NCBI RefSeq assembly: GCF_015709225.1
Contig: NZ_JADNRS010000029.1
Coordinates: forward strand, 124,001 to 188,000
Source of the DNA: Acholeplasma laidlawii
Lineage (GTDB): Bacteria > Bacillota_I > Bacilli_A > Acholeplasmatales > Acholeplasmataceae
DNA: 64,000 bases
Direction: 5' to 3'
In this document: one piece after another, positions 3,021 to 54,771 of the stretch
Numbering within the stretch: the stretch's first letter is position 1
Layout: each line of letters starts with the position of its first letter
Position numbers and translations under genes: made by a program
Notes under the pieces: model-generated
Seen by the model: the letters and a program-made list of their open reading frames with translations, nothing else
Database searches by the model: none
Told to the model about the DNA's origin: nothing

Positions 3021-3905
3021 ATGCAAATCGTAAAAGATTTCATGATGAAGAGAAAAATCAAGAAGAAAAAAAGACTCAACCGTTCTTTAGGTGGAGACAT
3101 TGCATTATTTATCTTACTTGCATTGTTTGGTGTTTTCTCAGCTTATCCATTAATTATGACTGCATCCAATGCATTCAAACCATTAGATGAGTTATTCGTT
3201 TTCCCACCAACATTATTACCAAGAAACTTAACATTTAATAACTTTAGAGATTTATCAGAGTTAATTGGAAACTCTTGGATTCCATTCTCAAGATATTTCT
3301 TTAATACAATATTTGTAACATTAGTCGGTACAGCAGGACACGTACTTATCGCAAGTATGTGTGCTTACCCACTGGCTAAATACAAATTCCCGGGATCAAA
3401 ATTCATATTCATGTTGGTAGTATACTCACTGATGTTCGCACCTCAAGTGACTGCTACACCAAACTATATTATCGTATCTTGGGTTGGTTTAATTGATACA
3501 CCATGGGCTATTATTTTCCCTGCAATCGCTTCATCATTAGGTTTATACTTAATGAAGCAATTTATGGAACAAGTTCCAATGGAATTAATTGAATCAGCTA
3601 AAATCGATGGTGCAAGTGAATATCGTATCTTTTTCCAAATTGTTATGCCACTGGTAAAACCAGCTTGGTTAACATTAATTATTTTACTCTTCCAAAGACT
3701 ATGGACTACTGATGGTGGTGCATTTATCTTCAGTGAAGAATTGAAACCTCTATCATTTGCATTACGTCAAATTGCACAAGGATCTATTGAACGTGCAGGT
3801 ACAGTTGCAGCAGTAGGGTTTATTATGATGATTGTTCCAGTTGTGTTCTTTATATTCTCACAATCTAAGATTGTGGAAACATTTAGTACATCTGGGCTGA
3901 AATAG
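3021..3905 (+). CDS. Sugar ABC transporter permease (MalG/UgpE-like)
   Basis: A 294-residue partner permease. A strongly basic N-terminus (MKRKIKKKKR) is followed by about six membrane helices. The EAA loop is clear near residues 190-213 (IESAKIDGASEYRIFF, then MPLVKP). It starts 2 bp after the preceding permease stop and should form a heterodimer with it. The next gene starts 9 bp downstream, so the group is transcribed together. The family call is firm; the substrate is not visible in the sequence. Confidence 0.93.
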   Translation: MQIVKDFMMKRKIKKKKRLNRSLGGDIALFILLALFGVFSAYPLIMTASNAFKPLDELFVFPPTLLPRNLTFNNFRDLSELIGNSWIPFSRYFFNTIFVTLVGTAGHVLIASMCAYPLAKYKFPGSKFIFMLVVYSLMFAPQVTATPNYIIVSWVGLIDTPWAIIFPAIASSLGLYLMKQFMEQVPMELIESAKIDGASEYRIFFQIVMPLVKPAWLTLIILLFQRLWTTDGGAFIFSEELKPLSFALRQIAQGSIERAGTVAAVGFIMMIVPVVFFIFSQSKIVETFSTSGLK

Positions 3906-3914
3906 GAGGATTAT

Positions 3915-5732
3915 ATGAAATTATTTACACTCATATCTCTTTTATTTACATTGCCATTAAACTTTTCAATTATAAGATATAACTTCTCGTATTATGGTGA
4001 TGTAATCCATTCAGCACCAGGCTTAAGCTATGCACAAACATTTAGCGAAAAAACACTTGAAATTGATATGGTTACCCCAGAAGATCTTGTGGTATATGAA
4101 GATGAAATATTTATAATCTCTAGCGGTTCTAATGCCTTAATCCTTGTAAATGATAATTTTGAATTAAACCAATCATTAAAATCATTTGAAATAAGTGCAG
4201 AATATAGAGATGTCTTATTTGACACAACAGAAGGTTTATTAGAGGCACATACAACGCTTAGATCTGATGTAGTAGCTCAACTTAACATTGCAAAAGCAAA
4301 CACAAATGAAAGTATGGCATCTCTAATATTCTTAGAAGCTGAAGCTAAAAATTTATTTATAGCAGATATGGATGCTCTACATGCAACACTTACCACAAAA
4401 GTTACATCAAGTATTAATCCATCAATTATTGTTGGGACAATTACAGAAGCTAACACAGAATTCAAAAAAATTGTTGATCTAGCAATTGCTGCAGATGAAG
4501 CAGCTAGAATTGAAAAAGTACTAGAACGTGGTGAAGACGATGTTGTAGTCGAATATCAAAATGCAGCTTTAGTTGAAAAACAAGAAGTACTTAGCGTATT
4601 AGAAGCTCAAACATTAAATGCTCCAATGGGACTTGATGTTCAGCATACTGGTATCTATATTGCAGATACTGGAAACAATCGTATTGTTAAATTAAATCAC
4701 AACTTTGAAGTCGTAAATTTATTTACTGAAGTTGATGATGTGACATTTGAAACGGTTGACTTTATTCCGGTAAAGATTACTACAGACTCAACAGGTAGAA
4801 TGTATGTTGTAGCTAGAGAAATTTACGAAGGTATTTTAGAACTGGATACTGATGGATCATTTAACAGATACACAGGGGTCAACCCAATCACTTTATCACC
4901 AATTGATATCTTTAACCGCTTTTGGATGAGTGATGCTCAAATTGATAAATTACCTAAGTTCTTACCAACAAGTTATACAAACGTTACAATGAACTCAGAA
5001 AACTTCATTTATGCAACCTCTTTACCATCAACAAACAACTCAGACAACATGATTCAATTAATTAACCCTAAAGGTGTTGATGTACTTATCCGTAATGGAT
5101 ATCATGTACCAAAGGGCGATATTCAATTTGTTGAAGGTATGAATAACTACGTTATCGATGGTCCTTCAAGACTTGTAGATATTGCAGTATACCAAGATGG
5201 TATCTATACAGTATTAGATGCTAAACGTTCAAGATTATTTACTTATGACTCAGAAGGTAACCTATTATATGTTAATGGTGAAGCTGGTCAACAATTAGAC
5301 AAGTTCTCAAATGGTGTAGCACTTGCGTACTTTGGTGATAACCTATTAGTTTTAGATAAAGAACTTAGAACAGTTATTGTCTATGAACACACAGAATTTG
5401 GATCTAAAGTAAATCAGGCAATTCATCACCATGAAAATGGAGAATTTGAATTAGCTGCTAAGCTTTGGGAAGAAGTCTTAGTGTTAAATACAAACTATGA
5501 AGTAGCATATAACGGTATCGGTAAATATCACTTAAGAAATGGTGATTATGAAAAAGCTATGGAATACTTCCAATATGGCTATGACAAATATTACTATTCA
5601 AGAGCTTATAAATCATATCGTAATGAATTAATCAAATCAAACTTTGGTTATATCATGCTTGTAGTGTTACTAGTTCCAGCATCGCTGATCGCATTAAAAC
5701 AAATTAAAAAAAGAAAGGGTAGACTAAAATAA
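3915..5732 (+). CDS. NHL-repeat and TPR protein with C-terminal membrane anchor
   Basis: A 605-residue protein translated from an ATG after a strong AGGAGG site. It has an N-terminal signal-like hydrophobic segment (residues 1-20), then NHL/beta-propeller repeats (PEDLVVYEDEIFI; PMGLDVQHTGIYIADTGNN near residue 237). A TPR-like helical pair follows (about 500-560, NYEVAYNGIGKYHLRNGDY), then a C-terminal membrane helix (about 578-598) before a basic tail. The mass of the protein should therefore sit outside the membrane. A helical segment of about 120 residues (95-215) interrupts the propeller. The gene is wedged between two permease pairs, next to a YIP1 protein. The function is unknown; a scaffold or sensor for the transport system is an inference. 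Confidence 0.8.
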   Translation: MKLFTLISLLFTLPLNFSIIRYNFSYYGDVIHSAPGLSYAQTFSEKTLEIDMVTPEDLVVYEDEIFIISSGSNALILVNDNFELNQSLKSFEISAEYRDVLFDTTEGLLEAHTTLRSDVVAQLNIAKANTNESMASLIFLEAEAKNLFIADMDALHATLTTKVTSSINPSIIVGTITEANTEFKKIVDLAIAADEAARIEKVLERGEDDVVVEYQNAALVEKQEVLSVLEAQTLNAPMGLDVQHTGIYIADTGNNRIVKLNHNFEVVNLFTEVDDVTFETVDFIPVKITTDSTGRMYVVAREIYEGILELDTDGSFNRYTGVNPITLSPIDIFNRFWMSDAQIDKLPKFLPTSYTNVTMNSENFIYATSLPSTNNSDNMIQLINPKGVDVLIRNGYHVPKGDIQFVEGMNNYVIDGPSRLVDIAVYQDGIYTVLDAKRSRLFTYDSEGNLLYVNGEAGQQLDKFSNGVALAYFGDNLLVLDKELRTVIVYEHTEFGSKVNQAIHHHENGEFELAAKLWEEVLVLNTNYEVAYNGIGKYHLRNGDYEKAMEYFQYGYDKYYYSRAYKSYRNELIKSNFGYIMLVVLLVPASLIALKQIKKRKGRLK

Positions 5733-31723: not shown

Positions 31724-31999
31724 ATGGAAAGATTAAAATATGGTATAAAAAACTCTCGTATATGGCATTTATGTAGTCAAGACATTGAAGTAAATAAATC
31801 AATGACACTAGATAACTGGACCAGATATAGAGCAGAATATAGAGAAATATATTATTTAAACGATAACATCAAGTTCTTAGAAGTTGATCATTTTAACCAT
31901 GTTTTTAAATTTTTCGATGCAAATATCAGAAAGCATAATATAGAAGACTTTAGACGTTATTTTAAGGACTTTCAAAAATATAAGGAAATATTGAAATAA
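31724..31999 (+). CDS. Uncharacterised 91-residue protein
   Basis: I do not recognise this protein. It is short, basic and rich in aromatic residues (RYRAEYREIYYLNDN; DHFNHVFKFFDANI), with no membrane helix and no cysteine pair. The ATG follows GAAAGGA and a plausible extended -10 (TGATACAAT, 31693-31701) lies 20 bases upstream, so it is probably a real gene. It stands alone after the hpf terminator, and its stop codon meets the end of the minus-strand RNA candidate. Confidence 0.6.
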   Translation: MERLKYGIKNSRIWHLCSQDIEVNKSMTLDNWTRYRAEYREIYYLNDNIKFLEVDHFNHVFKFFDANIRKHNIEDFRRYFKDFQKYKEILK

Positions 32000-32203
32000 A
32001 AAAAACCAAGAAAATAAATTTCTTGGGTAAGTAGATTAAATATGGAAGGCGTAGCCTAAAACTTGAAATACTAAACATAAATCAAATCCATAAAAATTAT
32101 AAATCTTTGAAATGAATAAAACTTATAAATCGAATAAACATTTGATACTTAAAGGTATAACGTTTTTAAGAACTTGTGATTCAAAAATACTAACTACGCC
32201 TTC
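31998..32203 (-). ncRNA. Candidate structured small RNA (about 206 nt)
   Basis: The minus strand has a complete transcription unit with no convincing open frame. A consensus promoter (TTTACA, 17 bp, TATAAT) places the start at 32203. The first ten bases, GAAGGCGTAG (32203-32194), are perfectly complementary to CTACGCCTTC (32054-32045), so the 5' end closes a stem with the region just before the terminator. Inside, ATCAAAT can pair with ATTTGAT. A hairpin (32026-32006) followed by eight U (32005-31998) ends the RNA. A closing stem, an open middle and an inner stem resemble the layout of 6S RNA, but no family is assigned; a decayed gene is the alternative. Confidence 0.5.
32006..32026 (-). terminator. 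Terminator of the small RNA
   Basis: Arms CCAAGAAA and TTTCTTGG with a five-base loop; the T run follows only on the minus strand, so it serves minus-strand transcription. Confidence 0.75.
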
Positions 32204-32209
32204 AACTGT

Positions 32210-32238
32210 ATTATATTACAAGATAAATCATTTGTAAA
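32210..32238 (-). promoter_or_regulatory. Promoter of the small RNA
   Basis: On the minus strand, TTTACA (32233-32238), exactly 17 bp, TATAAT (32210-32215). Confidence 0.75.
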
Positions 32239-32252
32239 GGAAAGCGCTAACA
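32239..32252 (-). promoter_or_regulatory. Candidate cre (CcpA) site next to the small RNA promoter
   Basis: TGTTAGCGCTTTCC on the minus strand matches the cre consensus at 13 of 14 positions and directly abuts the -35 element. Sites upstream of -35 can mediate carbon-dependent activation in Firmicutes. Confidence 0.4.
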
Positions 32253-32287
32253 TTTTTATGTTAAAATGAATTTTATGTGGATAATGA

Positions 32288-32318
32288 AAAAAGATATCAC
32301 AAATTGTGATATCTTTTT
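32288..32318. terminator. Terminator of sodA
   Basis: Perfect 15-bp inverted arms (32288-32302 and 32304-32318) with T5 on either strand; it begins 6 bp beyond the sodA stop codon on the minus strand. Confidence 0.88.
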
Positions 32319-54647: not shown

Positions 54648-54666
54648 ATTAACAATTCAATAAAAA

Positions 54667-54761
54667 CTTATTCAGAGCAGGTGAGGTGATCAGTCCTTTG
54701 ACCCTGCAGCAACCTATTTAATTTAGGTGCTCAACTGACAGGGGGCTAACCCACCAATAAG
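54667..54761 (+). promoter_or_regulatory. SAM riboswitch (S-box, SAM-I type)
   Basis: The closing helix P1 pairs CTTATT (54667-54672) with AATAAG (54756-54761). Inside are S-box landmarks: CAGAGCAGGTGA at the 5' side, GCAACC (54709-54714) pairing across to GGTGCT (54726-54731), and AACTGACAG. It lies directly before metK. SAM binding should stabilise P1 and let the downstream terminator form, lowering metK expression when SAM is plentiful. Confidence 0.92.
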
Positions 54762-54771
54762 GAGATTACAT

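Follow-up and report, generated by a model that had tools for sequence, protein, structure and literature searches.

An IS110-associated structured RNA and a probable transposase-less copy of it beside sodA in Acholeplasma laidlawii

Analysis of a 64,000-nucleotide stretch of the Acholeplasma laidlawii genome (here the window; assembly GCF_015709225.1, contig NZ_JADNRS010000029.1, positions 124,001 to 188,000) points to a small RNA unit on the minus strand between orf91 and sodA. It is probably, at about seven chances in ten, a transposase-less ('solo') copy of an IS110-derived small RNA that has been kept by the host. Comparison of its relatives shows the family, termed RNA1, to be an undescribed structured RNA that usually lies between the left terminus of an IS110 element and its bridge RNA, and the open-licence literature yielded neither an account of small RNAs from this group nor one of a second RNA at the left end of IS110 elements. 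A sequence-only reading of the window had proposed a new structured RNA resembling 6S RNA; the structured RNA has stood, the likeness to 6S has not, and the kinship of the relatives with IS110 elements had escaped that reading.

The promoter, the predicted start at G32203, the 10-bp closing stem joining the two ends of the RNA and the terminator that were claimed in the sequence-only reading were all recovered at the same minus-strand positions (Table 1), and the terminator T-run is indeed found on that strand only. The -35 and -10 boxes are separated by a 17 bp spacer, and the -10 box stands 6 nt ahead of the RNA's first base. The region holds 13 promoter-like sites, of which this promoter was the best, against a chance expectation of 13.0, and both promoter-like and terminator-like patterns were equally frequent in shuffled sequence. 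The patterns alone are thus no proof of a unit and it is conservation that supplies the proof. The transcript would run from 32203 to about 31998 (~205 nt), and the RNA folds at -44.8 kcal/mol (z -4.7 against shuffles), while the AT-rich extension folds only weakly when taken alone (z -1.7). A small protein was ruled out since no useful or fitting open reading frame was found inside the unit, in agreement with the earlier reading.

Table 1. Features of the RNA unit and the adjoining sodA terminator, in window coordinates.
Feature	Positions	Strand	Basis
sodA intrinsic terminator GATATCACAATTTGTGATATC and T-run	32287..32316	minus	sequence; RNA unit starts downstream of the T-run
cre-like palindrome TGTTAGCGCTTTCC, abutting the -35 box	32239..32252	minus	one mismatch to TGWNANCGNTNWCA; 0/14 changes in G002
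-35 box TTTACA	32233..32238	minus	sequence; identical in G002
-10 box TATAAT	32210..32215	minus	sequence; family-wide spacing to closing stem
RNA body, IS110-associated structured RNA (RNA1) with 77-nt extension	32045..32203	minus	covariance model R3 match; comparison with G002
Closing stem, 5' strand GAAGGCGTAG	32194..32203	minus	exact pairing with 32054-32045; compensatory changes in family
P2 hairpin GAAU-CACAA-GUUC	32170..32182	minus	covarying P2; motif common to both bridge-RNA loops
P3 hairpin AAACGUUAUAC-CUUUAA-GUAUCAAAUGUUU	32136..32165	minus	fold; family-conserved AUAC/GUAU core, covarying outer stem
AT-rich extension, this lineage only, partly a 17-nt tandem repeat	32060..32135	minus	0 changes in G002
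Closing stem, 3' strand CTACGCCTTC	32045..32054	minus	exact pairing with 32203-32194; compensatory changes in family
Intrinsic terminator CCAAGAAATTTATTTTCTTGG and T8 (hairpin 32026-32006)	31998..32026	minus	sequence; terminator in relatives too

The cre-like palindrome claimed next to the promoter is present, but sites with one mismatch occur in the window at chance frequency (10 found, 7.2 expected). This one is unchanged in the sister species (G002), where its surroundings differ, and the best CcpA-like protein scored 294 bits against a cut-off of 442; a role for cre and CcpA in the control of the unit is possible. Beside the RNA lies orf91 (31724-31999), a 91-aa frame with no Pfam match which is also found between hpf and sodA in G002, G003 and G004. 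Elsewhere in the window a SAM riboswitch (RF00162) scores above its gathering score at 54665-54763.

If the RNA were real, the sequence-only reading argued, homologues should be found in related genomes and the closing stem should show compensatory changes, and both were observed. The sister species keeps the unit, and relatives found by a 13-base pattern and then by covariance models are spread over several families within the order and the class. When 40 relatives were searched with the DNA, the matches elsewhere began mainly at query base 58, which is the predicted first RNA base, in several copies at contig ends. With matches in relatives starting exactly at the stem, a miniature element with short terminal repeats was first suspected; this was rejected because IS110 left ends and compensatory stem changes were seen. 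RNA1 is carried in the left ends of IS110-family elements of Acholeplasmatales and related Mycoplasmatota/Bacilli, the records including uncultured Acholeplasmatales, Izemoplasmatales and Mycoplasmatota MAGs, and most copies lie about 330 nt upstream of an IS110 transposase (domains PF01548 and PF02371) on the same strand. These relatives are ~80 nt long, and RNA1 is missing from most related genomes; IS110 loci whose transposases are more distant (L113-L128, L138-L141, streptococcal and others) gave no RNA1 match.

A full element begins where host sequence, usually an intrinsic terminator, ends in its T-run, and continues with CGTATACTAAG..., a terminator-like hairpin, a -10 box and RNA1, followed by a terminator, a target-loop-like and a donor-loop-like structure (the bridge RNA) and the transposase. 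In almost every element examined, the host sequence to the left of the insertion is matched by the left guide of the target loop (guide GTAGCTTCTTTT for target CTGGCTTCTTTT, for instance, and guide CATCCTTGTTT for target AATCCTTGTTT), as reported for IS110 (PMC11208160), and the structure downstream of RNA1 is on that account very probably a bridge RNA, with no match to any Rfam family. RNA1 itself is followed by a terminator in every family member read far enough. Of the 25 tabulated copies, 20 have a -10 box with 5-6 of 6 matches exactly 6 nt ahead of the closing stem, and in the others it is displaced by roughly one base; given this fixed distance RNA1 very probably starts on the first base of the stem. 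The promoter boxes of the window copy are the best in the family.

The structure of RNA1 is established by covariation in an alignment of 16 sequences, with the window species and G002 excluded, that was fitted to a model and to that extent favours the structure. Within it 98.8% of pairs are kept over the closing stem, P2 and the outer and inner parts of P3, and 15 of the 21 pairs have changed on both sides. The covariation score was 0.523, against 0.186 for shuffled alignments and about 0.1 or less when the pairing partners were slid. In this alignment, made up of IS copies only, changes on both sides were seen at 8 of the 10 pairs of the closing stem, whose variants include GAAGGCGUAG/CUACGCCUUC, GAAGGAACAG/CUGUUCCUUC, GAAGACAUAG/CUAUGUCUUC, GGAAGUGUAG/CUACACUUCC and GAAGGGAUGG/CCAUCCCUUC. 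An earlier plain MAFFT alignment had the closing stem 100% paired, with double changes in four pairs. Together with the conservation in the sister species, the covariation of the family bears out the proposal that the unit encodes a new structured RNA and has a promoter and a terminator of its own.

Since RNA1 lies between a promoter-like site and the bridge RNA, and since the T-run of its terminator can pair with an A-rich stretch downstream and so make another hairpin, it might form the 5' portion of one extended bridge RNA, as a third loop or a 5' cap, or be an attenuator acting on bridge RNA and transposase. Against this, the solo copies (the window, L082, L187 and L190) have the terminator and no bridge RNA behind it, so that the unit stands alone, and we hold such a role to be rather unlikely.

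The window copy was placed in the family with a covariance model (R3) built from IS copies only, this species being left out. The best match in the window (32203-32129, 33 bits, E 2.5e-5) starts on the predicted first base and is the sole match at E<=0.1 in the whole genome. The 77-nt extension lowers this score by placing the genuine 3' closing strand out of the model's range. In common with the family, the window copy has a -10 box ~6 nt before the closing stem and a terminator after it; directly after P2 it reads GUUC-UU, where the family has GUUC-GU. It is the RNA1 part only, with neither target and donor loops nor guides, and no PF02371 match that would mark a linked IS110 transposase was found in this genome or in G002.

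Conservation could be judged from one species pair, the window genome and G002, which are the only two species that carry the unit. One of the 159 bases of the RNA body has changed, none of the 77 in the extension and none of the 26 in the cre-like site and the two promoter boxes. Over the same interval coding sequences have diverged by 4.3% (orf91), 3.4% (hpf) and 2.3% (sodA), and the non-coding DNA upstream by 27% with gaps counted (mismatches at 11 of the 67 aligned bases). The RNA against its pooled non-coding neighbours gave a Fisher p of about 1e-4. This level of conservation exceeds chance and suggests that the RNA is retained for something useful.

A decaying remnant, that is an IS110 left end stranded after a deletion, possibly transcribed and functionless, would fit the occurrence of solo units at several loci. 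It would fit the window copy in having no conserved G after P2 and having gained a repeat-rich extension, and also the solo locus of the pair G187/G257, where the RNA differs at 6.9% of aligned bases and the adjacent galK leader at 0%. In the window pair, however, it is the non-coding flanks that have changed, by up to 27%, and the RNA hardly at all. The intact promoter and the strong conservation argue against simple decay, albeit in a unit carried by two species, and we consider decay unlikely.

At least four independent solo copies were found, including that of the window. The others, L082 (G003), L187 and L189 (G187 and G257) and L190 (G104), all end just after the RNA1 terminator. L187 and L189 are flanked by a small heat-shock-like ORF and a galactokinase-like ORF, names that are read from the translations, and L190 has also lost the left-end hairpin, which brings the unit into direct contact with the T-run of the host. 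The congeners G003 and G004 keep the order sodA, orf91, hpf, with the sodA terminator almost directly at the end of orf91 and no RNA unit between them. These empty sites place the window unit in the T-run of the sodA terminator, which is the kind of site used by these IS110s. On the preferred reading, an IS110 that inserts in terminator T-runs would have landed in the sodA terminator and would then have lost everything from the T-run of the RNA1 terminator to the right-hand target T-run, and the solo copy would have been kept because its RNA does something useful.

The T-runs that flank the solo units also raise the prospect that the RNA1 unit is a mobile cassette moved by IS110 recombinases, its terminal T-runs resembling target sites. 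In L190 the T-run of the host terminator is fused directly to that of the element's left hairpin, and the left guides of bridge RNAs match the terminators in which the elements sit. Simple deletion from an inserted IS nevertheless accounts for most cases and an excised or moving form was not observed, and a cassette is unlikely.

Other elements of the clade were also seen at defined sites. The left flanks of L041, L132, L134, L129, L137 and L192 show insertion in the T-run of host intrinsic terminators, and the left target guides of these elements match the 3' arm and T-run. An IS110 of the same clade lies in a CRISPR direct repeat (Rfam CRISPR-DR7; L142:2011-2169 and 3886-3986, also L112). 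The guides of its bridge RNA, ATCCTTGTTT and GCCATTAAAA, correspond to the repeat sequence (GTTTCAATCCTTGTTT/TAATGGATC), from which the element appears to be programmed to insert into CRISPR arrays.

That the RNA is a 6S-like RNA binding RNA polymerase is largely refuted and highly improbable, for although the window RNA shares with 6S RNA (RF00013) a closing stem joining both ends and a length near 200 nt, and no 6S above the Rfam cut-off was found in this genus, RNA1 matches no Rfam family including 6S, its covarying structure is a multi-branched loop in which the closing stem surrounds at least two separate hairpins (P2 and P3) and not a rod with a single central bubble, and its short relatives are patchy in distribution and linked to transposons. 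Among other candidates, L111 (inside a coding sequence), L037 and L038 were rejected as chance matches and L085 (28.9 bits, inside a coding sequence) was set aside. Viral contigs gave 11 pattern matches, none of which fitted the model, the rest of the unit being absent, and plasmids and phages gave no match to the unit.

Some indication of function comes from the hairpins. The form UGAnn-loop-nnUCG(U/C) is common to P2 of RNA1 and to the target-loop and donor-loop hairpins; a left end has 1-3 of them, near positions 20, 175 and 245, against about 0.1 or fewer in shuffles. In the structure of IS621 each loop of the bridge RNA is a stem-loop followed by a G-U linker, the G residues of which are recognised by the Tnp domain (PMC11208158), and the GU after the RNA1 hairpin of IS copies matches the linkers G72-U73 and G155-U156. 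From the shared hairpin motif and the recognised linker G we infer that RNA1 may be able to bind the recombinase and act as a decoy or throttle. The leading idea, put forward only tentatively, is that IS-borne RNA1 imitates the bridge-RNA loops to which the recombinase binds and restrains that enzyme. A solo copy might first have served as a brake on IS110 elements. In the window copy the conserved G after P2 is lost and, with UU for GU, recombinase binding may have gone with it, so that the RNA may now be a host small RNA with other partners. Equally tentative is the wider proposal that in this IS110 clade the recombinase is controlled by a second bridge-like RNA with transcription of its own, and that hosts keep solo copies as an IS110 brake or as a novel regulatory RNA. 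Programmable DNA recombination is founded on IS110 bridge RNAs, and an extra conserved RNA in the IS110 locus, bearing a motif by which the recombinase recognises RNA, could regulate that machinery in nature. Solo copies would offer a natural example of part of a guide-RNA system outliving its transposon.

Among the closest known systems is the bridge RNA, or seekRNA, of IS110 elements (PMC11208160, PMC11187229, PMC11208158), which like RNA1 is encoded in the left non-coding end. The stem enclosing a stem-loop followed by GU, present in its target and donor loops, recurs in RNA1. RNA1 differs in being a separate upstream unit with its own start and terminator, and the stretch beside its hairpin has no match to targets, whereas the left guide of the bridge RNA does match. 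Small RNAs of an IS110-type element have also been described in ISPpu9, where Asr9 and Ssr9 are proposed to tune transposase expression (PMC8450116). No homology with these is claimed: Asr9 runs antisense to the tnp leader and Ssr9 maps downstream of that gene, whereas RNA1 is a multi-branched RNA on the sense strand, upstream of the transposase.
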